This document shows positions 3,240 through 63,394 of a DNA stretch of 64,000 nucleotides, one piece after another. Positions within the stretch are counted from its first letter, which is position 1. Each line of letters begins with the position of its first letter. The translations under genes and the position numbers were made by a program. The DNA is taken from NCBI GenBank assembly GCA_963402885.1, contig OY727093.1:24923409-24987408 (forward strand). Reading direction: 5' to 3'. This DNA comes from Antedon bifida. Lineage: Eukaryota; Echinodermata; Crinoidea; Comatulida; Antedonidae. The notes beneath the pieces are model-generated. The model was not told where the DNA came from and did not search any database. It worked only from the letters and a program-made list of their open reading frames with translations.

Positions 3240-3605
3240 GAATAAATTCTAAAATGATATACTGAAATTTAATAATTAATTTGAAATGATAAAGATGAGG
3301 AAATCTGTGAAAATGAGAAAAGTCGCCCCAACCGAGATTCGAACACGAAACCTGCTGATTGATATGCAGATGTCCTAACCATTAGACCACAGGGGCTTTT
3401 AAGGTATTGTTCCAACTCGGTTGGAACACTCTCGGCGTGGTACGGCGGAACAGCACTAGTCCCTCAATTGTATGCACGCGCACCAGAGATCAAATTTATA
3501 CGGCCTCATCTTTCAGATATATACAGATTTCCTCATCTTTATCGCTTCAAATTAATTAATACATTTTCAGTATATCATTGGAAGGTTTAGAATTCACTGT
3601 TGATC
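3240..3605. mobile_element. Foldback element carrying a tRNA-like core
   Basis: Two inverted arms of about 55 bp flank the element. The left arm (about 3250-3310) reads GATATACTGAAATTTAATAA onward to GATAAAGATGAGGAAATCTG, and the reverse complement reappears at about 3521-3580. Between the arms is a minus-strand tRNA-like sequence. A diverged relative lies in dbr1 intron 6 (about 30805-31200) with the same order of arm, tRNA-like core and arm. This points to a mobile inverted-repeat element that has captured a tRNA or SINE head, or whose mobility module is tRNA-derived. No transposase is encoded. Confidence 0.55.
3325..3396 (-). tRNA. Degenerate tRNA-like sequence (pseudo-tRNA)
   Basis: The minus strand begins GCCCCTG and ends TTGGGGC, giving a five-pair acceptor core with weak inner pairs. 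It has a D-arm/A-box (TGGTCTAATGGTTAGGAC) and a T-arm/B-box (GTTCGAATC). The anticodon stem (TCTGC/GCAGG) closes a loop of 10 rather than 7 bases and the T stem has a mismatch, so it is unlikely to be a functional tRNA. It sits inside the foldback element at 3240-3605, and a more decayed copy lies near 31045-31115. Confidence 0.45.
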
Positions 3606-3813
3606 TATATTATACATTAATTATATCATACAGAATTCTGCTAGAGAATTGATCCAGCATAATCCTGTAATCTAGTATTAATTTATTAGATAATATTTCA
3701 ACTATAATTTGCACAAATTCTCCCAGAAAGAGCACTACCATTTCACAAAATAGAAGTAAATTGAAGTAAACAAAAATTAAAACCACAAAAATAATAGACG
3801 AATATGTACTTAC

Positions 3814-3864
3814 TATCGGTAGTTCCATTCTTCATGATGGCTGCTAATTCTAAAGTGACAATGC
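3814..3864 (-). CDS. Candidate short exon of an unidentified minus-strand gene
   Basis: On the minus strand a 51-nt segment is bounded by a pyrimidine-rich acceptor (TTTCTTTCATAG) and a consensus donor (GTAAGTAC). It contains an ATG in good context (GCCATCATGA) that opens MKNGTTD and then enters the intron in phase 1. Alternatively it is an internal exon read in the same frame from upstream. About 800 bp upstream on the same strand lies a CpG-richer block with a possible donor at 4618. No further exons are recognisable before the left edge. The product is unknown. Confidence 0.3.
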
Positions 3865-4618
3865 CTATGAAAGAAATTATATGATTACAAAACGTAATAT
3901 TACAAGATACCAATTTCGATCAGTGGTGTAAATTACACGTGGTAGAAATTACCCTGGTACTTGACCTAGCATGAAGGTATAATGTATACCTCATTAAAAA
4001 TACAGTATTACCTATACAATTGTCTTAAGTTGAGAACAGACCACTTGACAGACCACAGACAATTTGTAAATAAACTATCAAAAAGTAGGATTCACCTTTG
4101 ATCATTTCAATTACAGGTAGTCGTAAAGACAACATTTAGTTTAAAAATCATGCAGAATACTTATTATACTATAATAATTTAATAATCCTTTGCATAAGTT
4201 CTGAAATGTTAGTTATAAGTATAAAGGTGTTACAAATATACTTACTAAATGTGTAAACATCCACTATTAATTCAATATAAAATAAATTTTTTTTTCTAAT
4301 ATAATGCAATTTTACAAACTGGTTTAGACAGGGAAGTGAAGAAAGAATGTATATGGTTTAGATAGGAAATATATAATTATTATATTGTTTTACTGTGCCT
4401 TCCTGGTAATACTAAGTATGCAACATATGCTGTAATAATGTACAGTAGATAGGTGTGTGGATAACACCTGAACTTCAACATCGGATAGCCAGTGATCTAG
4501 TTAATATTTATTATTATTTAATCCATAATGAAAGGTATACGTTATCTAACTAGCAATACAATGTAATATATATAGATACAAAATAACTTAAAATAGGGAG
4601 CGTCTAATGATTAATTAC

Positions 4619-11124: not shown

Positions 11125-13044
11125 TTAACATTTAACGGACGCGTCTGTAAAGTTGGTCCACACTTTAAATATTCCAACTGGTGATTTATACGGACCATGG
11201 ACAACCATGCTATTTAAAAGATCACATTTATCTGAATCACCACCCCAGTTTTTAAAACCATCATGATGCATTGGGATCACGCCTTCTTCTTCTGCTAAAA
11301 TTCCTTGAAACGCGTCATCAATTGGTATAAGGGGTGTTTGTAACGCTTTTAAATACATTCCGTGGATGACGTCACTGGATAAGATGTAACCACCACCAGA
11401 ACAATATGGCGGAAAATATTTCCCACTATACTCCTTGTGAGATACGTAATATTTTGAATATTCTCTTCGTACAATTGGACTGCGGCGTAAGACGGAACCC
11501 ATGTAGAACTTTTCTAACGCTCTACCTTTCGCTCTAAGGTTTAGTATATAACTGATAATGTTTTCAAAATTAACAAATATATCATCATCCCCTTTAAACA
11601 TATACTCAGCGTTTTGGCAATTTTCTGATACCCATTTTAGTCCTAGAGCGACTTTGAGTGTCAAATTGTGAAAACTTTCAATAAAGTCTGCCTGTATTAT
11701 ATCTCCATATCTAATTTGTTCGTTTTTGACAATTGATTTGTATTGTTCATCTTCATTTTTTTTTAGTTGGCGTCCCATTACAAACAGAAATCGGATAGCC
11801 ATTCCGATAACGTTATGAGATTTTGCCCACGTTTTTCTGATTATGTCACGTTTACCGACATGCATTGGGAGTGTACTAATAAGCACAACCATAAATATAT
11901 CATCTGGTTTTCCTTGGTCGTTTTTACAAAGATCAGGACTATTAACAAGAAGGTAAAATCCTCTATCAAACAAATCAGCATTCAAAACACTATTCGTCTG
12001 CATTATTAAATCCACTTCAGAATGTTTACACTTTTTAAAAAATTCGGGATTGGAAACATTCGCCCACAATTTAGCTGTTAAAAGTGATGTATCAAAACCA
12101 CGAGCTGTAACAATGTTACGAAATAAGCAAGTATCATGGTTTAAATTTCTAAGCGTGAATCTTTTATCGTTAATAACTGTTACTCCAGTCTTTTCTGCTA
12201 ATATTGAAATGAACACATCTGCAATTGGGATAAAAGTTGAATTGAACGCTTCTTTCAAAATAATATTTGCACCATTTGTTGAAAGTATTATTCCAGAATC
12301 AAGTGTACAAAATGGCGGGAAATATTTGCGCCCGAACTGCTTACGAGATATATAATATTTTGAATTTGGTTCTCGAATTGGCACGCGATTTGTTATTATA
12401 TTTCCCGATACAAACGTGGATTCTTTCTCTTTTTTTTTTACAAATATTGCAAAGAGAACATCATAATTTACAAAGTTTTGATCATTCACCATAAAAATAA
12501 ATTTGGCTTTAGGACAAAATGTTTGTGCCCATTTCAATGCCATAAACACTTTTAAACTTGATGTTCTGAAGTTATCTTCAAACCTCCCTTGGAGCAAATC
12601 TCCATGCTTTTCATTCTCCGTTGAAAGAGATTCATCATATTGGAAGTTCGCATCCCTTCCTAAAATAAATAAAGTAACTATTCGTTTAAGTTTTCCGTGT
12701 TTTCCCCAAGATCTTCGAATTGCATTTCTCAAGTCAACATTTTTAGGACTTGAGTTAATAAATGTTATACCAAGAACTGATTTAATTCCGTGGCAAATGC
12801 TAACACCTTGATCAAGTTTCCGTGTCAGCATAACATCTTTAAGAACTTTTATGTTTAGCAACAAGTTTGGCTCAACATTATTTTCACTTTTACTCAAAAT
12901 CGTTTCCTCTATTTCAATCGGAGAATTTCTACTCAGTCTTGGTTCTTCGTTTTCTTCCAAGTAAAACACGAAAAGTAAAAATTGTAAAACAGTAAAAGAT
13001 ACAATTGCTCCAACACCCTTTTTAATTGCATTTCGTAATATCAT
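11125..13044 (-). CDS. Tandem two-domain GT31 beta-1,3-galactosyltransferase-like protein
   Basis: The 639-residue product is a predicted Golgi type II membrane protein: short basic cytosolic start, signal anchor at about residues 12-29, stem, then two GT31 domains (about 82-330 and 365-635). GT31 enzymes add galactose or GlcNAc in beta-1,3 linkage from UDP-sugars and need a DxD motif for the metal. Domain 2 has IRKTWA (402-407), GDDD (485-488), YCSGGGYILS (547-556) and PIDDAF (574-579), so it looks competent. Domain 1 keeps the fold landmarks (AIRRSWG 108-114, YFPPFC 241-246) but has VNDQN (186-190) in place of DDD, LDSG for SGGG and PIADVF for the acidic motif, so it is probably not catalytic. 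Typical family members have one domain of about 300-400 residues. The whole CDS is one exon; a minus-strand acceptor (TTTTCTTTTCAG) ends at 13069, implying an upstream 5'UTR exon. Donor and acceptor sugars cannot be read from sequence. Confidence 0.9.
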   Translation of the reverse strand: MILRNAIKKGVGAIVSFTVLQFLLFVFYLEENEEPRLSRNSPIEIEETILSKSENNVEPNLLLNIKVLKDVMLTRKLDQGVSICHGIKSVLGITFINSSPKNVDLRNAIRRSWGKHGKLKRIVTLFILGRDANFQYDESLSTENEKHGDLLQGRFEDNFRTSSLKVFMALKWAQTFCPKAKFIFMVNDQNFVNYDVLFAIFVKKKEKESTFVSGNIITNRVPIREPNSKYYISRKQFGRKYFPPFCTLDSGIILSTNGANIILKEAFNSTFIPIADVFISILAEKTGVTVINDKRFTLRNLNHDTCLFRNIVTARGFDTSLLTAKLWANVSNPEFFKKCKHSEVDLIMQTNSVLNADLFDRGFYLLVNSPDLCKNDQGKPDDIFMVVLISTLPMHVGKRDIIRKTWAKSHNVIGMAIRFLFVMGRQLKKNEDEQYKSIVKNEQIRYGDIIQADFIESFHNLTLKVALGLKWVSENCQNAEYMFKGDDDIFVNFENIISYILNLRAKGRALEKFYMGSVLRRSPIVRREYSKYYVSHKEYSGKYFPPYCSGGGYILSSDVIHGMYLKALQTPLIPIDDAFQGILAEEEGVIPMHHDGFKNWGGDSDKCDLLNSMVVHGPYKSPVGIFKVWTNFTDASVKC

Positions 13045-13244
13045 TCTGTGTTAGTTGTGCCAAGAAGTCTGAAAAGAAAATGAGATAGACAGTTGTGTTC
13101 ACCAACATTTCGACAAAAATGCTTCCTATAATGGTACTTTTCGACCAAAAAGTGTACGTTGTAATGTAAAATAACACATAATAGTTACCGGTAATAATTT
13201 AATTAAATTTTCATATTAGTGATTATTAAATTTAGGCCTACAGT

Positions 13245-36800: not shown

Positions 36801-39800
36801 TAATCACCATTAAATGGAACGCAAAAAGCGAAGTGCATTGATAAAAGAATAAAATTTTAAATACATTATATAGTTTTTATTAACATTTTTATTTTACTGT
36901 AATAATCTAATAATATCTATCTAGGCTAGGCCTACATCTAAGAATATTTCGATTCATTCTGTGAACATCAAAATATATACCTAACAAAAACATACTGTGA
37001 GACTAACATTACAACTAATAATGTTATTATATATAAATACTAGGCTAGGGGGCTACCTATCAATAAAAAACGACCGAGTGTGTTATAATTTATATTGAAA
37101 TTTCCGTTTTATTTTTCTAGGCCTATGTGTAGGCCTAACCTTACTTATCCTGCCATTATAATATTAACTATTTGCACTTTTTGCGTTTCATACTTTAATG
37201 GGGCCTAGTTGATTGATTAGTTTTTGGCCAAGTTGACTTGAGGCCGACTTGACTTGGGGCCGAGTTGATTTTGCGCTACTCCATTATTGACTTATTGTTT
37301 GACATCTGTAGTGTGCGGGAGCCGTCTTTTATTGTTTTCCTCCGCATATAAAATTGAAAATAAAAAATGCTGCCGCTTCGAATGTTTTAGACTTTTCGTT
37401 AAAAGTAGGTGTGTTATACAGGATTTTTTTACTGATTTTGTTGTTTTCTTGTGTAGGCTTTGTATTTATCAATCTTCAAATTGTAGAGAATCATTACATG
37501 AAATAAAAAATAAATTTTTCTAGGAGAAATATCTTTTGATATTTAGAATAGAGTGAACAATAACAAGCATTGTAACTCACACTTGATAAGAAGTATGTGT
37601 AATTTCAATCTGTCGCCCTGTTTCAAAGATTTTCTTTTAGTTAGAATTTTGCATTAATATGATGTTTTATAGTCTAGAATATATATGCTAAAATCAGTAT
37701 ATGTAGGTCAACGTGTCGATTCAGTTGTACCCTGTCCATGAAGGCATTGCCATTGTTTTGTTTTCATGTTATATGAAGCTGTTATGTCAATAATACAGCA
37801 CTTAATGTTGTACTAAATGCCATTTAGGTATCAAATAATGTAGACAGTATTTGTGTTGCTTGCTAAGACAACTATGTCAAGTCTTTTAACTTTTGTCTTT
37901 TCAACAGTAATCTGCACTTCTACATATATTTGTCATAGGTTTTTATAATAAATCGATCATTAATTTAATTTTCAATTTGTAAGAATTGAAAAACTAAAAA
38001 CAAAATTTTGTACCAAATCCAAATATGTAGTATATTGTACATACTTGTGTAAAAATACATAAACAAAACCAATTAGTTTTTTTTTTTATACGGCCATACT
38101 ACATTGAAACACTGGTTCCCATCAGGTCACCAAAGTTGGCAACGTTGGGCCCGGTTGCTTTCTGGATGGGAGAACGTCTGGGAATCGCGTTGGGTGCTGT
38201 ATATATTAGAGAGTGATGATATCGGACTAACATGTGTTAGGCATGGGTTCGAGCCATACTGATTGCATCCTTAGGCAAGATGCTTTACTGTCATTACCTC
38301 GTCCTTCAGATTGGATTTTTAGCCATTGGTCCCATGTACATATAGTGCATGTTAAAGAACATGGTACATATACTATTTAAAAAGAGTAGGAGATCGTCTC
38401 CTGGTGTGCTGTTCTGCGTAGGCGCTGCACTGCTGGCTGCCGTGGCTCCGTGGAGGGCCTGATACAAATTTCCTCAGTTTCCAGTTAAGCTTGAGGACCA
38501 GAATAAATAAATTTATATTTACATTTATGTTTGCCTCAAAATGATACATGAAATTATGTATTAATACTGTACATGGATGAGGAACAAGAAAAAAAAAAAA
38601 AAAAAAACACACAACCAACAGACAGGATTCCCAAAAAGCGCACCTAATTAAATCACTATCTAGTAGATCTCCTAATGCACTGATTGGAGAAAAAAAAAAT
38701 ATTTAGAATTTAAAAATATTTAAATGTTCTCATTTTCTGTATTGCCATATTAGCATAAATGTTATGATGAAATCTGAAATTACTGAATGTGCAGTAATCA
38801 CATATTGATCCTTTGTTAATGTTTGTATTTAGCCGACAATTCAAGATGACAGTATGTAAATGTTTAATAGTAAATAAAAATACAGTTGAAATGTCAAATC
38901 ACTAAAATATCCTATCAAAGACTAATCCTGTAGTTTTATTGTTTAAGGCAGCAAAAAGGTAAAACAAATCAACATCTTTTTAACGATTTTATATTTTGAA
39001 ACATTGAGACCATCAATAAAAGACAGACAGTATAATTCGTCTGTGTTTTCTGTTCTGACAATTTCATTTGTAAACAGAACAGTTTTTAACAGAATGTGAA
39101 TAAGCATGACTGTAGTTTTTATGTTATCTGTGAAAGCACTCGTTCACACAGATAGTCTTTTCGATTTGCACGCCCATTATGTAGTCTGATACCCTATGAT
39201 GTTATTTATCTGATTTAAGTATGTGCCACTGGCATGTCCACTGCTAAATTTGAGAGTTTTCAGTGGCATTTTTCTGTTCGCTCTCTGACTTAGTACGAGT
39301 GGACATATGACATCATAGCATTGCAAATGTTTATCAACATCATGGCCGGGAATGATCTTGCAATGATTTTCTGGGGATATACAGTAGTAAAATGCATTTC
39401 AGTGGTTATTTTAAATAAACATTTTAATAATACAGGTTAGGGCCTAGATCCTAACACCAATCTTTACTTAAGGAATTTAGGATATAGACCAAGTTACAAA
39501 CACTATGCCTATGCTAACACCGGCCCAGTGGAATAGCACCACGCACACTAGATTACAATGGTCATTACATCATTCGTTCACTGGCTTGTCAACATGACTA
39601 TCCACTTCAATCAAAATGTTCGTAATATGAACATGCACTACATACAGGTATATTATACCTGTGGACATGTACGTACATATGCACTTTCATTCAAATCGAA
39701 AAGTCCCTATCCATGAATTGAAGAATTCAGCTTTCAGCTGTTGTTGTATTTGACCTTTGGTGAGGAGCTTGGATATTCATAATCTGGTTATCCTTATGTT

Positions 39801-40729: not shown

Positions 40730-40895
40730 AACAAAATGATTTTTTTAGAGGTGGGGATTTGTGTACATATATGAAAGTTGTTCTAGATAAAGATTTGACA
40801 TTAACCAGTTTAATGAATTGGTAGAAGTTTTAATTAGCAAAGGGCACAATTATGCAATCCTACACTGAAGCCAATGAAAATGCCAAGGGTAATGT

Positions 40896-41485
40896 CTTAA
40901 TGATGGTGTCATCGATGTCTTTAATTGTGTCATTGATGTCGTTGATGGTGTCATCGATGTCGTTGATGGTGTCAATGTATTTGATGGTGTTATCGATGTC
41001 GTTGATGTTGTCATCGATGTCTTTAATTGTGTCATTGATGTTGTTGATGGTGTCAATGTATTTGATGTTGTCATCGATGTCGTTGATGGTGTCAATGTAT
41101 TTGATGGTGTCATTAATGTCTTTGATGGTGCCATCGATGTCTTTAATGGCGTCATCGATGTCTTTGATGGTGGTTTCATCGATGTCTTTGATGGTGCCAT
41201 CGATGTCTTTGATGGTGCCATCGATGTCTTTGATGGTGGTTTCATCGATGTCTTTGATGGTGTCATCGATGTCTTTGATGGTGTCATCAATGTCTTTGAT
41301 GGCGTCATTAATGTCTTTGATGGCGTCATCGATGTCTTTGATGGCGTCATCGATGTCTTTGATGGTGGTTTCATCGATGTCTTTGATGGCGTCTTTGATG
41401 GTGTCATTAATGTCTTTGATGGTGCCATCGATGTCTTTGATGGTGGTTTCATCGATGTCTTTGATGGTGTTATCGATGTCTTAAT
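40896..41485. repeat. 21-bp minisatellite downstream of dbr1
   Basis: About 27 units of ATCGATGTCTTTGATGGTGTC with variants. Several units are 24 bp (extra GGT) and some are shorter, but most length steps are multiples of three, so frames stay open on both strands, giving KTSMTPS-type and SLMVSSM-type translations. The minus-strand ORF 40850-41629 has unique sequence before the repeats but no domain. Regarded as non-coding satellite unless transcription is shown. Confidence 0.88.
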
Positions 41486-41489
41486 AATG

Positions 41490-44190
41490 CTGTCATGTAT
41501 TTGAGAAAAGCTTTCGGTACACCAAATCAGTTTATGTAAGCTTTTGAAAAGAAAGGTGGACACTAGAAAATGTAAACACTGTATAATTATGAAAAATACA
41601 TTTTTATCATTGCATCTAGATATAGACAACCCCTCGTGAACATAATGGTAAATATCTTCTTTTATAAATTTGATTGTAAAAAGAAATTGTTATTTATTTA
41701 ATATGTATCTTATGGACTTCATAATAATTAATTTTAAAAGACATGCTCATGATATTTTAAATATTATTTTATGTATTTCTCTATTAACACATTTTAAAGT
41801 TTACTAATCCACTGGTGACTGACTAAAAAGTTGTTTAAAGAAAACTTCAATTTTATTCAGAAATGCCTCCATAAATGGAGAGAAGAACCTACGAAAGTTA
41901 CAATAAAAGAACAATACAGTGCATAATATTATCAAAAACAATTTTTTAAAATCGAAAGTAAAAAACTAAGATCGTGAATATGATCGCTATTTTTAAGTGT
42001 GGAGGCAAAATAACCTTTCTCAATGAATATACTAATAGTTGTAACTTTAACACTGATACCTGTGTAAAATACCTCATCTTGGTTAATTTGCATATATTAA
42101 ATTGGTTTGGTATCTAAATTTCACATTTTTATTTAAATGATATTTACGTTGTTCATAAATAAAACATCAGCCGAATTTGATCCCAGCTATACTGCTTCAA
42201 TAAAAAATCTGATCTTGTTAGAGCAATTAAGTGTTTAAATGCCGAGCAGGTTGAATTAGATTCACTCTGCTTCTTATCTTAACACAAACCTACTAAATAG
42301 AACATATTTACACGTATTAACATTTTGCTTTGTTTCGTGGATTCGATGAGATTACGTCGTTTTTATTATTCCTGTTTATAAAGGTTTTATGATATGTATT
42401 ATTACATTTTACAACCAAATGCCGTCAAGTATTAATTTATTTCTAAATGTTTATTTTAATAAATGTTATCGCGTTTATTTTACATGAATCGGATTGTACC
42501 TTATTAAAATCTAAATCCCAAGCCCTCCCCACCCTCCCAGTTGTAAAAGTACGGTAAATATTATTATTACGTAATTTATTGCAATAACGGTCCTATTAAC
42601 AATCATTATTATTTCAAAGCATTTAATTCATGAACACAGCTTGATTTATTTCGGTAAACGTTTTTATTTCAACATTTACATTGACACTATCCGTATAAAT
42701 GAAGTGACAAACAAAGTCATCCCGCTAAAATGTAATCGTGCGCATATGTTGACATCGGTACCACATGATACCATAGGCGTATCTAGATTTCACAAATTAC
42801 AATGCAAAGGATATAACATTAGATTATGTTCAGTAGTTAAGTTTTAAGCCCTTCTTTTTGTCAGAGGTTGATTTTGATATTTTATTACTCTGTAAAATAT
42901 TGATTTTCACAAGTATTTATGCAATAAAGTGTCGATTTTATTAGATGATTTGTTTATATCTTTATGTATTCTGTCTGGTTGACTTGTGATCGTACTTTTA
43001 TTTATTCATTCAACTTTCTGCCATATACAATACAAAGAAGACTTCAGCAGGGTATGTTTGTTTACATTTTATTAAAATAATAAAAGCCTATGACATGTGT
43101 TGCTTTGAATACAGGAACTCCGCTGCCTCCATTGATACAATAACTATACACAAACTTGACGTGGCTTCATTTTGTCAACTAGAGTGGGAGCGAGCAAACT
43201 CTAGGAAGTGTAGACCTTGCAAGGTGATTGACACATCTTACCGTGAACCCGGAAATTACTTACCGCGCGTAGAGTTAAAATTTACCGATTGAAATCAGAA
43301 AATGTCTTATAAAACCCTTTATAATATCTTAAAGATAGAAATATGGAACAATAGCGTAGTACTGAAAACTAATGTTATCAAATCTACGTTTCGCGATACA
43401 TCTGAGATAGAAAAGGTAGGTATCCAAGGCGGAGATTGGTACCGAAGGTTTTCCATTGTGCTCGCCTGTGTCAGAATTAACCATAATTTATATATAGATG
43501 ATGTAATCATGTCGCATGAATACAGCAGGAAAACAATGCATTTACTCTGATGAGCTGGCATCATTAAAGCAACATTGTACTATTGCATTTATTGTCGAAG
43601 ATACCCGAGTAATTCAGCCTTTTTTGCATTTTCTACTGAAAAGTACATCACTCTTATTATTGGTTATGCGATACTGTCAATGTATAAATATAATTGAGAA
43701 AATACGACTATGCTACCCATGCTCCATTACAGGAATAATACCAAACAAATAATAGGCTACTACAGTTACATTAATAAATGTAATTTCCAAATAGAGCTGG
43801 GTTAACAGTGTGTCTCATGAATTCACTTGCCTCCCGTCAGCGTCATTCAATCCGTCGATATTTCATGAAACATAACGAGAAATAGGTTAAACACTCAATA
43901 CTATGAATTAAGACCGTAGATTATGACTATTACATTAACGTAAGAAGTTCTGAGAAAATCATTGGCATCATTTGTGAATTTCCATAAAATCTTCATTATA
44001 TACCGTTTTCTATGATTATTGAAGATAATTAGAATATTTGTAATTTACCAGGTTGTGAACTTTTGATTATAATGCCTAATTAAGATTGAGAATCAATCAA
44101 ACTGGTCTGATTATTATTGTCATACATCAATATCGGCTCGGTGTGAATAATATGTGTGTTAATATGGGCTACCTTACCTGTAATCAAACC
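41490..44190. other. Unassigned intergenic DNA
   Basis: AT-rich with no recognised gene or mobile element. Three ORFs of 65-82 codons lie close together (43095-43292, 43302-43550, 43516-43752). Their translations show no domain, and flanking splice signals are not convincing. Confidence 0.5.
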
Positions 44191-52300: not shown

Positions 52301-54740
52301 AATAAACAAATGCCCGCGGTAACACTAAAGATCTAATAAAGAACTTGAGCAAATGTCTCGAAGCTTCGACCGACTTTTGGTCTGGCTGCTGGAACTGTTT
52401 ATCGTGTCGTAATTCGTCACAATTCATAACTTCAAACAGTGCCATTGTTATTTAGGCATATTTCAAAAATGTTTACTCCAGCCTATAAATCTCGAGTCTA
52501 AAAAAAGTATACAAACATCTCTCTTATATAACATAAATAATTTATTTAAAAAAAGAAAACAGTTGATAAAGTAATTTTATTCCCTTTTCAATAAAACACG
52601 AGTGCTAAAATAGAAAGGTATTTGTTCGATAAAATATGTACAATTTTTTCAGTGACGTCACGAAAAAATCCTGTGAAAGTAACTGTTTAAGCTTGGGTCC
52701 CTTTTGGACGCAACGTAAAGACGTAAGCGCACCGTAAGTAACTTGACCAATCCCGACGCGATGGATCACCCGAACTGACGTTTGTGATTGGTCAACTCAC
52801 GTTTGCCTTGGTCGAGGCGTACAAGTGGGAACCAACCTTTTATTTAGGGATCATCTGTGCGCACAAAGTGCGTCATCAAATTGTGTGCTTTTGTGGCGTT
52901 AAGAATACAGGTATATTAATTTGGGTTTTATTTAGTTGAGTTCAGTTCTATTCATGCCAATTTTAGAACGACGTATATGCCACTTTTACATTTGAAACTT
53001 AGTGCAACTGGAAGGATGTACATGTAATAGGACAAATGTTTTTCTATTGTTCCAAGGTTTCAAGATTTTAATTTATTTTCAAAATTGCATAAGATTATTT
53101 GATACGGTAAATAGTTAGGCCTAAAATAATGTAAAAAGGGAGGAAAAAAGCAAATGCTCGTTTTTATGGCTACCCTTATATAAGAACCATGAAAATAAAA
53201 ACATGACAATGACAGAACAAATACATAAACAAATAAGATTGTATAGGCCTAAGTTCTTTTTCACAGAGGAAGAAAACATTAAGAATGCTGTTTAAACACA
53301 GTAGTTTTTAGGAAATTGACCAGATTGACTACAATAGATGTTTAGTCTTTCTTTGCAATCTTTAGATGTAAATTGTGAACAAAACTGAATTCGAATATAT
53401 ATAATGCGTTTAAAATCTTACATAATTAAAAACTATAATTATAATTTAGGCTATAGTTTTCCGTTTTATTCTTTTATCAAGGTGTTTGGTCAAAATACAA
53501 ACGCATTATATAGTGAGAAGATTGGAATATACTCTAGGCCAACATGTAAAATATCTCTAATACATCTCCGCACACCTACAACATATTACCGCTTTTAGCA
53601 GTTTGATTATGTGTATTCCAATATGTGTTGATGTTACCGCTAATACATCTTAAGTGGCTAAATAATCGAATATTAGCTTTGTTTGGAATGTACGAAAAAA
53701 AAACTGTTTTGAATAATGGAATATACGTAGATTATGATAAATAATGTGTGGTACAATTCACATTATAGGAAAATGCCTTTGTGACCAGATTAGCATGTTT
53801 TTCTACTTGACTTTTTCTTCTTTATCATGTACATTTCTAACAACCATGGTAATGATGCTCAGCTAGCACAATGTTGTACGTAGCTAAACCACGTAATTTA
53901 GTTTTGACATTTTGTTCAGAATATTGTGCAAATTGCTGGAGCAAGCGCAGTTCCATATGTGCAGGCCTATTGCTTGCTGGCACGAACTTGATAACATGCC
54001 GAATAAATAATATTATCATCATTATAAATATTTAAAAGATACAGAAAATCAATTTGGTCCCATAATGTTCATGGTCATAAATAAATAATTATCATTGGAT
54101 GATTTGTGAACGCCACAGAATGATATTCTAATTAGCCTAATGAATATCATTCAGAATAAACAATTTGTGAACTCGTAGCTTAGTACCTTCTTCCTTATTA
54201 TTCTCAATTGCATGTTTTGAGCAAACCATAGGTTGCCCGTTTTTTGTCCAGCTCATTACCTGGATCGTATAGGCTAATTTAACAATCATAATACTATTTG
54301 CCAAATAGTTGTAGAAAATGAGTGTTCAAAAAAAATTACTCGCTACTAATAACAGATCGATGTGCAAGCGATAACTTTAACAGTGTCGTGTTTTGCATTG
54401 TCGCTAATTATAACGATACAATAATAGTTTAGCCATTTCCAAATATTGATTAAAAATTAGGCTTTATATTCTAGTTGAATATGATATTTTTGATGATTTA
54501 ATAATTATGACTACTCATTGAAATGGTAACAGCTGAAGTGTCCTCATTATTTGCGTTGGATGAAGCATTCATGATAATAATATAACATAATTAAGGATTT
54601 TTCTAACATTATATTTTTCCATAGGACAATACCCTACATAAAGTCTATACAAGGTACGCTGAACAACCTTATATCAATATTTTATGTCCTAAACCAGTGC
54701 GTTTCTGGTTTTTTTTTATGGAATCGTACATACAGGAAGT
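49310..54740 (+). other. ELK intron 1, proximal part
   Basis: No exon with PAS-domain similarity is found. It contains a MITE at 52688-52842 and diverged repeat text at 50535-50720, where a block with AAACGCCTATTAAGAGGACAC is partly palindromic and resembles 5045-5110. The rest is AT-rich unique-looking DNA. Confidence 0.55.
52688..52842. mobile_element. MITE related to 6675-6877
   Basis: Ends TTAAGCTTGGGTCCCTTTTG and ACAAGTGGGAACCAACCTTT are inverted with mismatches. The interior shares ACGCAACGTAAAGACG-type motifs and an inverted CTTGACCAATC / GATTGGTCAA pair. Confidence 0.6.
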
Positions 54741-54744
54741 TCTT

Positions 54745-56240
54745 CTATGCTTTTACTTCCCAATCTTCATGCTTTTACTTCTCAATCTTCATGCTTTTAC
54801 TTCAATCTTCACGCTTTTACTTCAATCTGCATGCCTTTACTTCAATATCCATGCTTTTACTTCAATCTTCACGCTTTTACTTCAATCTTCACGCTTTTAC
54901 TTCAATCTCCATGCTTTTACTCCAATCTTCATGCTTTTACTTTAATCTTCATGCTTTTACTTCTCAATCTTCATGCTTTTACTTCTCAATCTTCATGCCT
55001 TTACTCCAAGATTCACGCCTTTACTTCAATCTTCACGCTTTTACTTCAATTTTCACGTTTTTACTTCAATCTTCACGCTTTTACTTCAATCTGCATGCCT
55101 TTACTTCAATCTTCATGCTTTTACTTCAATCTTCATGCTTTTACTTCAATCTCCACGCTTTTACTTCAATCTTCACGCTTTTACTTCAATCTGCATGTCT
55201 TTACATCAATCTCCACACTTTTACTTCAATCTTCACGCTTTTACTTCAATCTTCACGCTTTTACTTCAATCTGCATGCTTTTAATCCAATTGTCACGCCT
55301 TTACTTCAATCTTCATGCTTTTACTTTAATCTTCATGCTTTTACTTCAATCTGCATGCTTTTACTTCAATTTTCACGCCTTTACTTCAATCTTCATGCTT
55401 TTACTTCAATCTTCACGCTTTTACTTTAATCTTCATGCTTTTACTTCAATCTTCACACATTTACTTCAATCTTCATGCTTTTACTTCTCAATCTTCACGC
55501 TTTTACTTCAATCTGCATGCTTTTACCTCAATTTTCACGCCTTTACTTCAATCTTCATGCTTTTACTTTAATCTTCATGCTTTTACTTAAATCTGCATGC
55601 TTTTACTTCAATCTGCATGCTTTTACTTCAATTTTCACGCCTTTACTTCAAACCTCATGCTTTTACTTTAATCTTCATGCTTTTACTTCAATCTTCACGC
55701 TTTTACTTCAATCTGCATGCTTTTACTTCAATTTTCACGCCTTTACTTCAATCTTCATGCTTTTACTTCAATCTTCATGTTTTTACTTCAATCTTCATGC
55801 TTTTACTTTAATCTTCATGCTTTTACTTCAATCTTAATGCTTCTACTTCAATCTTCACGCTTTTACTTCAATCTTCATGCTTTTACTTTAATCTTCATGC
55901 TTTTACTTCTCAATCTTCATGCCTTTACTCCAAGCTTCACGCCTTTACTTCAATCTTCACGCTTTTACTTCAATCTTCATGCTTTTACTTCAATCTTCAT
56001 GCTTTTACTTCAATCTTAATGCTTCTACTTCAATTTGCATGCTTTTACTTCAATCTTCATGCTTTTACTTCAATCTTCATGCTTTTACTTCAATCTTCAT
56101 GCCTTTACTTCAATCTTCATGCCTTTACTTCAATCTTCATGCTTTTACTTCAATCTTCATGCTTTTACTTCAATCTTCATGCCTTTACTTCAATCTCCAT
56201 GCTTTTACTTCAATCTTCATGCTTTTACTTCAGTCTTCAT
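54745..56240. repeat. 20-bp satellite array in ELK intron 1
   Basis: About 74 tandem units of CTTCATGCTTTTACTTCAAT with single-base variants (CTTCACGC, CTGCATGC, CCTTTAC); a few units have TTCTCAAT insertions of 2-3 bp. The unit contains no plus-strand stop in any frame, so all three frames stay open over long stretches and produce spurious ORFs up to 274 codons. A and G are confined mainly to one strand, giving strong strand asymmetry. Confidence 0.95.
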
Positions 56241-56244
56241 GCTG

Positions 56245-58075
56245 TTAAATTATTCCATCTTGAATCCAAGAACATATACCTAAATTCACAATAGAAAATT
56301 AAACAATGGTAGGCCTAATATATACAATATATTCAAAATATGCTTTTTCTATCTGATTAAATTTGCAATTGTTATAACAAGAGAAATTATTATAGCAGTT
56401 CATAGGGATGCAATGTTGATAATCATTATGATACCATAAAAGCTAATGATATCTATTGTGTTCAAATTCGATAAAAAATATGGCTTCAGAAACTATCGTA
56501 CCGTGCTTTCCTCATGATCAAACCGTCCGAAAAAACACCAGATATTTAACCCAAATCTAACATTGGTTTTTGTGACACGATAGTTTTGAATATTTCTTAG
56601 TATTCTTTAGTTAAGGTATATTAACCTATTATTAAATCTCCCTCTCATTGTTTTTTTTTGTGTGTAAAAAAATGTAATCGGGGGTGGGGGGGGGGGGTGT
56701 CTCTCACACATTCCTGGTTTTATGAGACCCTTCATATTTGGGCTAGTGATCAGGCCGTGGGTTCGAGAATTACTACTGATTATTTTTCGCGAGTTTTCTC
56801 AATGTACTTAATATAAAGTACAAACAATAATTGAGTAGGACAAACATCTTACCAATTGTACATTATTTTCACTATGATTTATTAAAATATTCGTATTCGT
56901 AAAAAAAACATTATTCGTGTGATGTTATTGTACTAAATTCACTTGTTGTATAGTTTGCACGGGGTATATAACTGATGTATTGGTCATTAAGAAAGCAATT
57001 GATTTAGCATGACAGAATTGTAGCAATCCCTATATTTCTTTACCTCCTCATTCGTCCAATGTTAGTTTTTAGCAATGTATTATCGAGAAAAAAAAGCGCT
57101 CAAGCTAGGAAATGTCAAATCGCGGATGTAATCAGTTTCTGAAAATCAGCCCCGAGATATTTTTACTAAATAAAGGAAAAGGTTTAGGCGGGGTTAAGGC
57201 AACATGATATTTTTCGGAATGTTATGATTTAAAAAATTAGTTTGAGGATATTATTGTGTTACCACGATAACTCGACGGCTAAATTTGTTTTCTAATTAGC
57301 ATTATATGGTTTCATTCTTGTCACCATTATTTATGTATAGCGTAATTAGCAAAGAGAAGGGGAGGGGGTTAATCAACCCCTTCTGCCTACGCATTCACTG
57401 TCATTATTCATTTGTATTTGTATAAAAAATTCTTCCATAATCCTAATGATTATCTGACAATGATAAACTGTAAAACTATTTACTCACTAATAATAATTCA
57501 AACGAAAAAGGTGATAGTTGAAATCCTTTTGTATTTGGACGTAATACAGTACAAGACGTATATCATTACATTTACCCAACGAATTTTGTATTTAAAATTC
57601 CAAAGATGATATATTATTGTATTATGAAATGCAAAATATAGATCTGAAAAGGCAATGGTTTCCAAGCATTGCCCGTAGGCCTGGAGTAATTACTTGCCTG
57701 CGATTAATCAAACATGCTAGACTCTGTATAATGCAAAAACTCATTATTCGCAAATCAGGACTGATATCAACCGAACATTTCGTACGTTTCAATTACTTAA
57801 AAATAAGTTTCACGTTAAAAGATTACCGAAGATACTTTTATCACATTTGCACAACGAACGCATTTATGTTATATGTTTGAATTCATGCCGTTAAAAGGAA
57901 TTTAAATTACATAACAAAATGTATGAAAAGATTGACTGCAACACACTTAATACGTGTGACATACAACTTTATAAAAAAAATGGTACTGCAGGTTACCTTG
58001 TAGGCATGTATATAGTTATTTAATAATTTAATTATAATTATTCTATATTTCATAAACGGATATTAATATAATTCG
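56245..58075. other. ELK intron 1, unassigned
   Basis: AT-rich with a G-run (about 56679-56698) and no recognisable exon, RNA gene or element. ORFs at 57412-57609 and 57617-57880 have no domain. Confidence 0.5.
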
Positions 58076-58077
58076 AA

Positions 58078-58248
58078 GTAGGTTTGCGTCAGGGAGGTAA
58101 GTTAATTGGTCAGATGTTTTGCCATTCTGGCGGAACTTAGTATAAAGTACAATTGAGAATTCTTTGGTGAAACGTGAACCCAGTATTCTCAATTGTACTT
58201 CGTATCAAGTAAACGTCAGAGTATGGAAACTATATGACCAATTAATAT
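58078..58248. repeat. Long foldback sequence
   Basis: Arms of roughly 60 bp are inverted: TTAATTGGTCAGATGTTTTG...AGTACAATTGAGAAT on the left and ATTCTCAATTGTACTT...TATATGACCAATTAA on the right, with a 16-bp perfect innermost stem (58145-58160 with 58185-58200) and a 24-base loop. A related single block (GGTTTGCGTCAG to CTGACCAATTAATT on the minus strand) is at 63245-63308. Confidence 0.55.
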
Positions 58249-58249
58249 A

Positions 58250-58407
58250 AATCCAAAGGCAAATTACTGAAAAAAAATGACAATGCTGTGGGTATCAGTG
58301 GCTGAATCTTAAAGGAGATACAAAAAAGCGAAAAGCTAAATCAAAACGATAAAGTAAAACAGCCAGAAAAGTTAGCAGAGCTTTCGGGCAACACTAGCCC
58401 TTCATCA
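58250..58407 (-). mobile_element. 158-bp retroelement-like insert with hammerhead ribozyme
   Basis: The insert is flanked by perfect 14-bp direct repeats GACCAATTAATATA (58236-58249 and 58408-58421), a length typical of retrotransposition target duplications. Read on the minus strand it begins with a hammerhead core, runs through GCTGTTTTACTTTATCG and ends CAGTAATTTGCCTTTGGATT. A second copy lacking the ribozyme core is at 62763-62923 (+) and a short third fragment is at 62929-62964 (-). It has no ORF. Penelope-like elements and retrozymes carry such ribozymes, so this could be a remnant or non-autonomous derivative of one. Confidence 0.65.
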
Positions 58408-58421
58408 GACCAATTAATATA
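58362..58421 (-). ncRNA. Hammerhead-type ribozyme core
   Basis: On the minus strand CTGATGA (58408-58402) is followed by stem-loop II (GGGC, loop TAGTGTT, GCCC), then GAAA (58385-58382), a 3-bp stem III with loop TCT (AGC/GCT) and the UA cleavage dinucleotide (A17 at 58373). Stem I would pair GGT with ACT before diverging. This follows the type I hammerhead order C3UGAUGA, stem II, GAA, stem III, UH, stem I. One unpaired A lies between CTGATGA and stem II and stem I is weak, so activity is uncertain. Confidence 0.6.
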
Positions 58422-58539
58422 AGATACTTAATTTAAATTAAAACAAAAACTAACAGCATTTTAATTTTTTGGACCATTTAAATTTGACAAACAAAAACAA
58501 TCTGTTTATTAAATTATTGAAATGATAAACGTTAAATGT

Positions 58540-58588
58540 ATTTCATCCAGTACAGTAGTACTTTTAAGTACTACTGTATGGATGAAAT
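58540..58588. repeat. Near-perfect 23-bp hairpin
   Basis: ATTTCATCCAGTACAGTAG continues to an AGTACTT tip, a 2-base loop and its complement ending GTATGGATGAAAT; the only defect is one bulged G. The tiny loop argues against a miRNA precursor. A short palindromic insertion is the simplest reading. Confidence 0.6.
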
Positions 58589-59714
58589 CATTTAAATTTA
58601 ATTCTCCCTAACTAAATAATTGAGAATAGATCTAAAAAACGTCAAATAGTTCTTTAAATGAACTAACGGGATTAAGATTGTCGCAGTAATGGTGATAAAT
58701 TGACAGAAACTGAAGTTAGAAAACCTAAAGAAAATTAGCAAAAGGATAAATTGAATTTGAGAATTAATTAAACTACCAGTATGTCTTCATTTTTAACATA
58801 CTTTATATAGCGAAAGGCCCACCGAAATCTCTTCTCTTAAAACTCTTCTTTTTTAAAAAACTTCAATGTATCAAAAAGGCAATTTGATAGATATGATAAA
58901 ATATAATAAATAACAAGATGGTATCACGATTAACCATAAACATTAGTTTAAAAAAAAAGATTACTATGGAAAAAATTCCGATCATGTTTATTTTAACAAC
59001 TGTACTTTATAAATGTTTACAAGATAATTTTATAATAAATTTGAATGTGCTGTAACTTTATTCTTATAATCATATTGATATTTATTAAACAACATATCTA
59101 GGTCAATCCCTACGCTAAGATGTAGTTAATTAATAACATGTATTTTACACCAGCATAATTCTAAATCAATTATGTATATTGACACACACGTCAGGCAAAT
59201 AGTTACAGTAGAACAAACAGTAAAGTTGTAAGGTCAAAATGAACGCAATAAGTCTTATATCTTAAATCTTATAATTTACTCTTTTCTCTGTATCTTAAAA
59301 TACCACCCCTCAATGGATTCACGTATTTTAAATGGGAATGTATTGAAAATCATGTAGTGTAGGGTTCCCGGATGGATAATGAGTAAAAGTTCTTACACTA
59401 AGGCAAGACAACAGTGAACGATTATTCAAACCGTGAGCTATTTCCCCACAATGTTATGTTGTTGTCAGAATTAACAAAATATGACATATAATCGAAAAGC
59501 ATTATCCTTATGGTTTATATTACACATTAGTAGCATGCATGTTTTAAGACTGTGTGCTATCATGTTCAGCACACAAATTGGCATTTTTTCTGCACACATA
59601 ACTATTTGACATCCATATCATGAAATTGGGTTTTTTTTAAAATTCGCCTTGTAAGGAATGCATTAAGTAACGGCAACTGTTACAAGCATGATAAATGATC
59701 GTTAGTATCGCAAT

Positions 59715-60540
59715 TGTCATCATCATCACATCGTCATTGTTATATCGTCATTTCTATTATCGTCATATCAATATCATTGTCATCATCGTCGCCATTGACA
59801 TCATCATCGTCATTGTCATCATCATCGTCAATGTCATCATCACCGTCATTGTTATATCGTTATTGTCATTATGATCATCATTGTCATCACCATCGTTATT
59901 GTCATCATCATCGTTATTGTCATCATCATCGTTATTGTCATCATCATCCTCATTGTCATCATCATCGTCATTGTCATCATCATCGTCATTGTTATATCGT
60001 CCATTATCGTCATTGTCATTATCATCATCATCATCATTGTCATCGTCATTATCATTATCACCATCGTCATTATCTTCATCGTCATTATCATCATCGTCAT
60101 TATCATCATCGTCATTATCACCATCGTCATTATCACTATCGTCATTATCATCATCGTCATTATCATCATCGTCATTATCATCATCGTCATTATCACCATC
60201 CTCATACTCACCATCGTCATTTTCATCATCGTCATTATCATCATCGTCATTATCACCATCGTCATTATCATTATCACCATCGTCATTATCACCATCGTCA
60301 TTATCACCATCGTCATTATCATTATCACCATCCGCATTATCATCATCGTCATTATCATTATCACCATCGTCATTATCATTATCACCATCGTCATTATCAC
60401 CATCGTCATTATCATCATCGTCATTATCACCATCCTCATTATCATCATCGTCATTATCACTATCGTCATTATCATCATCGTCATTATCACCACCACCGTC
60501 ATTATCATCATCGTCATTGTTACTATCACCATCGTCGTAA
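59715..60540. repeat. ATC/ATT-type satellite (TCATCATCGTCATTATCA)
   Basis: More than 800 bp of imperfect trinucleotide repeats, with 18-bp higher-order units such as ATCATCGTCATTATCACC in the second half and a TCATTGTCATCATCATCG version in the first half. Because every unit is a multiple of three, long His/Tyr-, Ile/Val-, Ser/Leu- or Met/Thr-rich ORFs appear on both strands. None is likely coding. Confidence 0.93.
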
Positions 60541-60544
60541 TATT

Positions 60545-62760
60545 ATCGTTATTTCCGTCTGAATATCAACTTCGTTTATCGTAATGGTCATTTTATATCC
60601 TATCTGCGTCTTCTATCCTCTTCTATACGGTAGCCATCACCACACCGGTTATCACAGCACGAGTATTCAGGCTTTAATTATTTACCCGGGCAAGTTAATG
60701 ACCTGAATGGGCCAATGTTGTTATTAATGTTATACCATGGATGGAAATAGGGACATAATAATTGCTCCTATTATCATCTATTACTATCGCCAGTATAGTA
60801 ATGTATAATGAGTATAACTTATATTTATATTAATTTTATTATTATTATTGATATTTATTTTCATAAAATGAATCATGAAACATAATAATACGGTTAACAT
60901 CTGAGTTTTAGCAGGATCATTATATTACATACAAATCCTTTTGTACAATTCTTAGAATCATAACTATCCATCTAATGTATACTCATATTCAATGTTTAGT
61001 CTTTTCATATTACTCCTTTGTTCCCATCTTAACATATGAGCACGTGTGACATCATCTTTATTGCTTGGCAACAACGTAACCGTGCATGAATGCTAGAAAA
61101 CTAGTTAGTGGTTAATGATTGTTGAATGGTTGTCATGGTGAGGGGACTCGATTCTCGGGCCCTCAATTACTGTCAATTTGTTACTCGTATTGAATAATAA
61201 TCTATTATAATATTAATCTATAAAATGTTAAGAGCTTTTTGAAGGTAGCAGTCCGCCATCTAATTTAATTACCATAAATACTATTTCTATAAAGTATAAT
61301 AAAGTTAAAATATTTTGCAATTATCAAGCATGTTATGTATTTAAGGGTGAGTTGTAAATGTATAAGAGAGGCCTTAAAATGCAAAGTTGATGAAGTGTCC
61401 TATACCCTCTGCAATATACTTTGGCCGCATTGTAGACAAAAGTAAACTACTAAATTATGATTAATATTACATTTGGTCGATAGGCCTATATCTTTAAATT
61501 GTAATAAAAAAAATAAAATGAAATAAAAAAAAATGAAATAAAAAAATTATACCGTATTTTATACAACTAAATATAAAAATATCACCGATTACATAGTCAT
61601 AGAATAATCTTTCTCAATAATAATCGGGAAAAAAAATTACTAAACAGATGGATATTATTAGAAGATTGTATGAGAATAGATAGTATTGTACCACTCTGTC
61701 AACAACAAGGAGACGTTCACATAATAATACGAAGTTTTAATTTCTCTCAAATCTGAAGACATTTTAATTTCTTTCCAATATATGGAAATGTTTTAATTTG
61801 TCTTCAATATGGAGACGTTTTAATTTCTATTTGCAATATGCATGAATGTATGTCTGGCGGGTCGGCTTAAAGTATTTGATTGCCATCATGCTGTAATGTA
61901 AAATTCATATTTGTAAAGGTAGAGTGATCGATAAGTCGCTAGAAGACGTGTCAGAGGTGACTTAATATAAGAATTTGCATTTAAAACACGTGTATGTATT
62001 AGGAATAGGTTGTAATTATAGGAACGCGAAGATATAACGTAATAATAATGCTACATCTGACGTTAGAATCTTACACTGTGATGCTGAAATAAAAATATGA
62101 ATAGAGGACTTCTTACGTTTTTTTTAAATTTTTTGTAACGGTTGCACTGCTTCGGATAATCTTCGAGGGCATAAATGACAATATAGGGCTAAATTTTGCA
62201 AAAACCAAAGGCCATAAAGTTGCATAAATACAATACCTACAGAATTTAAAACATTTGTGTGTTAGTTTTCAATACCTCAATTTTTTAATTATCAAAGTTC
62301 ACACAGCAGAACAGGTGACAGAAAAAGATATTGAATATAAAAACAAACATTCCATTACTTACATTACAACATACAATTTTCCACTGGTGTTTCTTTGATA
62401 AATCGTATTGGAATAAGCTGTAAGAATTATTAAATGCATTCATATCTTTAGTAAACATATGTTAGCTTCAACATAAATCAATGCTTTCAATGTAAGGACA
62501 TTACAATTGATTATCGGTTCAGAAAAGCATTTTCGGCAGGTGGACTGAGAGTTTAAGCAGGTGGTGAGTCTGACAAAATGTGTTGTATAATGCGTTGATT
62601 CGTATAGCGTTATCGTTCTGTTTTGTGTCACTGTATACTATAAATGGTTTAAGAGTATGATTTAGGCTAATAACATGTACTAAATATTATATCATTATAT
62701 GATTATCTCATTGAAACATGGTTTAAATCAATTAAAACAGCACAATGAGGTTAAATTATT
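60545..62760. other. ELK intron 1, unassigned
   Basis: AT-rich DNA with no exon or mobile element I can support. Short direct repeats of a TTTTAATTTCT-type phrase occur at 61737-61830. Confidence 0.5.
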
Positions 62761-62762
62761 GT

Positions 62763-62964
62763 TAGTGTTGCCCGAAAGCTCTGCTAACTTTTCTGGCTGT
62801 TTTACTTTATCGTTTTGATTTAGCTTTCCGCTTTTTTTTTGTATCTCCATTGAGATCCAGCCACTGATACCCACAGCATTGTCAATTTTTCAGTAATTTG
62901 CCTTTGGATTTATATATATATATATATATAAATCTAAAGGCAAATTACTGAAAAAAATGACATA
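62763..62964 (+). repeat. Second copy of the 158-bp unit plus an inverted fragment
   Basis: From GTGTTGCCCGAAAGCTCTGC to GCCTTTGGATTT it matches the insert at 58250-58407 in the opposite orientation, but the CTGATGAAGGGC part of the ribozyme is missing. A (TA)n tract and an inverted fragment (AAATCTAAAGGCAAATTACT) follow, forming a palindromic junction. Confidence 0.7.
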
Positions 62965-63394
62965 TATATATATTAAATATAATATAATTATTGTGATTGT
63001 GTTTCTATACAGGGATATAAATGATGAAGTCGGTATGAAAAATTATTACCGATCTTAAGCCCACCTCTTCTAAATTTATGACTCACTACTGCCAAGATTA
63101 TAATTATCGTTAAAATGGCGTTTCACTTAAAACCAATGTTTATTAAATCAGGCCTAAACAGTAATATTTATATTATGTGTATCGATAACTACAAATGTGA
63201 CGAATACTTGATACGACAAAAGAGAAAAAACCACAATACAAACAAATTAATTGGTCAGATGTTTTTCCTATTCTGACGTAACTGTTAACTCACTGACGCA
63301 AACCTGCTTTGCAGTAGATATAAAATTAATATAAAACAATAACTAGCTTAAGTCAAAGAAACACCATACTTTTGAGTTCTTATTTAATGATAAC

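Follow-up and report, generated by a model that had tools for sequence, protein, structure and literature searches.

Very probable origin of a short insert with a hammerhead-type motif in Antedon bifida: the truncated end of an endonuclease-bearing Penelope-like retrotransposon

The stretch of DNA analysed here (the window) comprises 64,000 nucleotides of contig OY727093.1 from the crinoid Antedon bifida. It carries a short insert that is bordered by an exact direct repeat, GACCAATTAATATA, at 58236-58249 and 58408-58421. The repeat is 14 bp long, hence a unit of 158 bp; the exact match extends to 15 nt, and the start-to-start spacing is 172. On the minus strand, one end of the unit reads CTGATGA, a hairpin with the arms GGGC (58400-58397) and GCCC (58389-58386), and GAAA (58385-58382). 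The features of this insert and of a second, related site are listed below, where L047 denotes a copy retrieved from elsewhere in the genome and PLE a Penelope-like element.

58236..58249, no strand: target-site duplication, copy adjoining the 3′ end of the element; exact direct repeat
58408..58421, no strand: target-site duplication, copy adjoining the truncated 5′ end; base 58408 is common to it and CTGATGA
58245..58408, minus strand: very probably the 3′-terminal piece of an endonuclease-bearing PLE, 5′-truncated at CTGATGA
58402..58408, minus strand: CUGAUGA, putative hammerhead core strand, from the letters and the family copies
58401, minus strand: extra unpaired A between core strand and stem II; CTGATGAAGGGC in 39 of 45 unit copies
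58386..58400, minus strand: stem II with GGGC, loop UAGUGUU and GCCC; all four pairs in 41 of 44 copies, three of four in 3
58378..58385, minus strand: GAA, palindrome AGCU (diminished stem III) and C; GAAAGCTC; register taken from published minimal PLE hammerheads
58372..58377, minus strand: UGCUAA, stem I 3′ strand of the family; the 5′ partner UUGCA is replaced by target DNA here
62763..62919, plus strand: second copy of the PLE end, 95.6% identical to L047, 5′-truncated inside the stem II loop
62922..62962, minus strand: short inverted 3′ fragment of the PLE, 92.9% identical to L047

An earlier sequence-only reading of this DNA had described the 14-bp flanking repeats and the 158-bp spacing, and both are present. 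It had also taken the unit for a retroposed insert with a target-site duplication, and this holds: the 14-bp repeats are the target-site duplication of that one insertion, 14-15 nt long and including GGTC. The inserted piece (58245-58408) is 94.6% identical to the 3′ end of the L047 copy, and its 3′ border is ambiguous within a shared TTATAT. The window copy carries no open reading frame, and its membership in the PLEs rests on its identity to the end of the family. The CTGATGA, the GGGC/GCCC hairpin and the GAAA had been recognized correctly on the minus strand, and the extra unpaired A at 58401 had been missed. In 200 first-order Markov simulations of the window, a pattern of CTGANGA, 0 or 1 nt, a stem of at least 4 pairs and GAA is expected 0.015 times per window on both strands together. 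Since this number is so low and the stretch recurs in the genome, the motif cannot be put down to chance. The PLE insertion lies at the end of an imperfect inverted-repeat element (58095-58250) with TTAATTGGTC ends that matches its own reverse complement at 71.6%; a further 40-nt match to this element is found at 63244-63283. A 55-nt palindrome at 58535-58592, 91% self-complementary, is possibly a small MITE.

The second copy at 62763-62919 had been noticed before as a copy that has lost the core, which is confirmed: it lacks the hammerhead core because it is truncated inside the stem II loop. The inverted fragment at 62922-62962 lies tail-to-tail with it across a TA run, and the junction of the pair forms a palindrome of 35 nt that is 97% complementary.

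The stretch 58200-58450 was compared with the genome from which the window comes (315.6 Mb, 27 contigs). At least 53 matches were obtained, with the best 40 of 2,164 candidates scored, and the best matches below the window itself are 88-96% identical. This search proceeds best-first and so favours young copies. An even sample of 20 stretches of 10 kb at round-number positions yielded 2 further copies; both start downstream of the motif (reference 202-203), and one is only 76% identical. From the genome search, 38 places were retrieved. The unit copies have a recurrent 3′ end, GGATTTATAT, in 40 of 45 cases and at TA-rich sites, and CACTTGCACTGATGA is contained in 28 of 45. Direct repeats of at least 8 nt flank 34 of 42 copies and are mostly TA runs. 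A G or C is present in 9 of these 34 repeats; among the nine, that of L017 is an artefact of the cut end of the query and that of L041 lies between adjacent copies. L021, L025 and L027 are examples of copies with their own flanking repeats. The boundaries described for the window insert are thus no trait of the family, as neither the 14-bp repeat nor the exact length of 158 bp is common to its members. The earlier reading had pointed to the genome for full-length copies and tandem dimers. Longer copies are indeed there; adjacent unit copies in a row are seen at L041, and a longer tandem array was not seen among the 38 retrieved places. At L009 (340-482), two 5′-truncated unit pieces lie head to head, an arrangement that would be consistent with both strands of a break serving as primers. 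No published description of the unit family was met in the literature searched.

Longer copies reveal what the unit belongs to. In L044, the sequence upstream of the unit runs into a frame with a GIY-YIG domain. L047 is a wider locus of the same place; here a 444-aa frame precedes the unit, and its matches are above the cut-off for GIY-YIG and below it for reverse transcriptase (RT). In L068, the unit (3755-4065) lies downstream of a 786-aa frame in which Pfam recognizes both RVT_1 (38 bits, cut-off 29.6) and GIY-YIG (29.1 bits, cut-off 22.6). The L068 element thus has RT and GIY-YIG in one open reading frame, and the family shows short target-site duplications at AT-rich sites, as in endonuclease-bearing PLEs. 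The L068 frame is itself 5′-truncated, because L082 has further N-terminal sequence. A search with the ORF part gave 319 candidates, of which the best 40 were scored; 19 of 48 matches are 99-100% identical. Upstream stretches of the ORF were examined in 15 copies (12 + 3). N-terminal ORF sequence was found in five of them (L072, L073, L075, L081 and L082) and was not seen in the other 10. A PDB sequence search gave no match at E up to 0.01. We are highly confident that the window insert is a short 5′-truncated copy of the 3′ end of such an endonuclease-bearing Penelope-like retrotransposon. Taken alone, it is an ordinary PLE remnant, a fresh example of an already described kind.

Unit sequence directly before the start of the ORF was seen in L082 only, and L068 has the unit only on the 3′ side. 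In L082, a 5′-truncated unit (reference 200-313) with GGATTTATAT, a TA run and AATT stands directly before the ATG GAG GGT of the ORF. Given its truncation and the TA run at its end, this unit may have inserted into that run as a nested element. None of the copies examined had the ORF enclosed by two complete units. An open frame that crosses the unit and continues into the ORF, as L072 had suggested, was rejected: the L072 junction is inverted and palindromic, and L082 shows an ATG start instead. The order pLTR-ORF thus rests on L082 as one truncated case.

The copies also allow the register of the motif to be compared between family members. The sequence-only reading had placed a hammerhead with a tiny stem III (GC-UCU-GC) and a cut after UA. 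In this register, 42 of 43 testable copies form no stem I pair, and three pairs are formed in the window copy only, through letters of the target site. We therefore rejected this register, since its stem I pairs in the window come from target DNA. Of that reading, the PLE-type motif and the link to Penelope-like hammerheads stand; the tiny stem III and UA as parts of a working hammerhead do not. For the family we infer a register with the extra A before stem II, the palindrome AGCU in place of stem III and a cut after GCUC. Here, three consecutive stem I pairs are found in 39 of 44 copies, two in 3 and one in 1, and none in the window copy. These 44 copies were chosen by a pattern that already demanded CTGANGA, the extra A, GAAA and TC. 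What can be learned from them is therefore limited to the pair counts, which are not independent because the copies are related. From these comparisons, the motif is best read as a published minimal PLE hammerhead in another register than the one first proposed. CUGANGA, stem II and GAAA are all present in the window, together with a diminished stem III with a palindrome; this AGCU would need a second copy to pair with. The cut is predicted after 58378 in the window copy. This copy is probably inactive, as its first stem I strand is lost and replaced by target DNA, so that cleavage is not expected. The case also holds a lesson: when one copy is read by itself, a spurious stem I formed by the target-site duplication can lead the reading astray.

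Could the likeness to hammerheads be coincidental, or the hairpin have another role such as protein binding? We consider this unlikely, and several observations speak for it. The Rfam covariance models, by which the motif was originally meant to be checked, gave no hammerhead match in the window (gathering threshold), in 58200-58450 (E up to 10) or in L044, L041 and L016; the matches up to E of 10 are unrelated and all below their own gathering scores. The motif has an extra nucleotide after CUGAUGA and only three consecutive pairs in stem I, and there is no covariation within the young family. Folding is no better than that of shuffled sequences in any of four stretches (z -0.40 to 0.92), and in one of them, a 57-nt family stretch, stem II is not formed. 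On the other hand, the unconstrained fold of another 57-nt family stretch forms stem II and GCA/UGC at -11.1 kcal/mol, compared with -8.3 kcal/mol for a hand-drawn stem I of 5 pairs, and an unrelated family has a like architecture. At L078 (300-440), an inverted pair carries CUGAGGA, C, GAUC/GAUC, GAA, the palindrome ACGU, C, and a stem I of CUC/GAG. We take it as a candidate second PLE-type hammerhead family, unrelated to that of the window. It was found by scanning the retrieved sequence with relaxed rules, which were written after the first family was known. By simulation, the relaxed pattern is expected 0.025 times per 264 kb, and it occurs 0 times in the window and the 20 sampled stretches; L078 lies outside this 264-kb test because it was retrieved as a neighbour of a PLE copy. 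Both families carry the extra nucleotide after CUGANGA, which is A in the window family and C in L078.

Known systems agree with the preferred assignment to an endonuclease-bearing PLE in several points. In the PLE PAc of Anolis, reverse transcription has an internal start and AT-rich targets are preferred (PMC11167929). Its hammerhead cleaved only with the PLE protein and was dispensable for insertion in vitro (PMC11167929). A study of Adineta vaga describes TATATATA and an Inr-like TCACT in the pLTR of Pen2a (PMC3846280). Common to these elements and the window family are RT and GIY-YIG in one frame, AT-rich targets, short target-site duplications, 5′ truncation, and inverted and adjacent pieces; the hammerhead-type motif is shared with PAc and the Inr-like TCACT with Pen2a. 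In PAc, the start codon coincides with the beginning of stem II and precedes the cut by 26 bp (PMC11167929); in the window family, stem II begins 23 nt ahead of the cut. The ORF of PAc begins at stem II, whereas the unit of the window family follows the ORF, and in L082, unlike PAc, the truncated unit is separated from the start codon by a TA run.

In two reviews, minimal type I hammerheads without helix III are described in PLE pLTRs and as dispersed in animal genomes, where they number thousands (PMC7761336, PMC6155905). According to a further source, PLE hammerheads work as double structures, and they have palindromic stem III loops and lie in tandem (PMC6466107). Set against these descriptions, the window family shares CUGANGA, stem II, GAAA, the lack of a helix III of its own and a palindrome for a dimeric stem III. 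The one extra nucleotide between CUGANGA and stem II would set the window and L078 families apart from the minimal PLE hammerheads as reviews describe them. Minimal type I PLE hammerheads were reportedly described by Cervera and de la Pena in 2014 and by Lunse, Weinberg and Breaker in 2017. Animal non-LTR retrozymes are described as non-autonomous tandem repeats with canonical hammerheads (PMC7229834, PMC7761336). Like our family, they consist of small repeated units that bear a type I hammerhead, whereas the window unit is one end of a PLE.

To examine the relation between short and long copies, 47 sequences were compared, among which L044 and L047 represent one place; pieces that began beyond reference 165 or stopped short of 300 were left out. 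Two subgroups of the unit were seen, and both hold long and short copies. Several short copies show zero substitutions compared with long ones. Short copies share their subgroups with long copies and would therefore be products of the same elements, and a separate short lineage was rejected. The 38 places and the window supplied 57 aligned pieces for a count of 5′ ends. The 3′ end is reached by 53 pieces; 42 of them reach the first element base of the query and were counted, and the other 11, more truncated, were left out. In 34 of the 42, the copy starts within 11 nt (reference 139-149), at an initiator-like TCACT, and 8 of 42 start further upstream.

We tentatively propose, on the letters of the copies, that reverse transcription with an internal start gave rise to the short copies as leader-only products, a reading we rate just short of probable. 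It is drawn from the clustering of 5′ ends at TCACT together with the internal start and AT-rich targets of PAc. The initiator-like TCACT that shortly precedes the motif would be where the RNA of the element starts, with the predicted capped end at TCACTTGCAC. The endonuclease would open a TA-rich target, and the UA stretch after GGAUUUAUAU would pair with the opened target, where reverse transcription would start. A start in the 5′ leader, at the stretch that precedes the start codon, would leave about 175 nt to the 5′ end of the RNA and result in a leader-only copy; a start at the downstream stretch instead would give a long copy.

The main rival for the clustering of 5′ ends keeps the PLE origin and has the reverse transcriptase leave the template just past the folded motif. 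It would account for the location of the ends, which coincide with the 5′ strand of stem I and precede CUGAUGA by 0 to 10 nt, and for the 8 of 42 copies that run past the motif. However, a structural block would rather be expected 3′ of the hairpin, before it is copied, and the ends coincide with an Inr-like TCACT as named in Adineta Pen2a. We regard this explanation as possible, if somewhat doubtful. It is scarcely credible that the short copies owe their 5′ ends to cleavage by the hammerhead, even though the motif adjoins these ends. The cut between GCUC and UGC would be 31 nt downstream of the first base of CTGATGA, whereas the ends cluster at or upstream of it, and the two copies of the even sample start at reference 202-203; this comparison is partial, as copies starting at the predicted cut site are hardly detectable with the 58200-58450 query.

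The first reading had suggested a very short non-autonomous retroelement with a ribozyme. Such a distinct unit, a retrozyme monomer or something like a SINE, would carry its own hammerhead and be moved in trans. The short unit gave 2,164 candidates against 319 for the ORF part, albeit with queries of different length, and clustered 5′ ends with a recurrent 3′ end would also suit such an element. It is nevertheless very unlikely: both subgroups mix long and short copies, several short copies are without substitution relative to long ones, 8 of 42 copies continue upstream, and the 38 places show adjacent copies at L041 and no longer tandem array. The claim is unsupported, as the longer copies continue into frames with GIY-YIG or with RT and GIY-YIG. 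Nor is this an independent small unit in the sense of a non-LTR retrozyme, since the parent bears an ORF and the short copies form no separate lineage.

If leader-only insertion is true, a PLE deposits far more ribozyme-bearing leader copies than copies of itself, which would explain the thousands of dispersed minimal hammerheads in animal genomes. Genome sequence alone would then suffice to locate, from the ends of such copies, where a PLE begins transcription and where its reverse transcription starts internally. The value of the family itself is modest: its clustered 5′ ends and recurrent 3′ end allow sequence tests of where PLE reverse transcription starts, and it also serves the question of why minimal hammerheads lie scattered across animal genomes.

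Other features of the window were noted in passing. An Rfam tRNA match at 3324-3396 (minus strand), within 3250-3500, looks like the head of a tRNA-derived SINE. The 3250-3500 stretch recurs in L028, L029, L039, L046, L068 and L082 at 85-96% identity, with one at 69%. In several loci the TA tail of this SINE-like sequence adjoins a PLE copy; the loci were chosen for their PLE copies, so this gives no rate. A long tandem array occupies 54581-56294, with frames that translate into repeats such as LLLQSSCFYFNLHAFTS, and at 59699-60584 and 40834-41689 simple-repeat regions leave several frames open on both strands. The minus strand holds a 641-aa frame at 11125-13050, which we take to resemble a duplicated beta-1,3-galactosyltransferase. 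A 5S rRNA match above the gathering score lies at 38086-38205.
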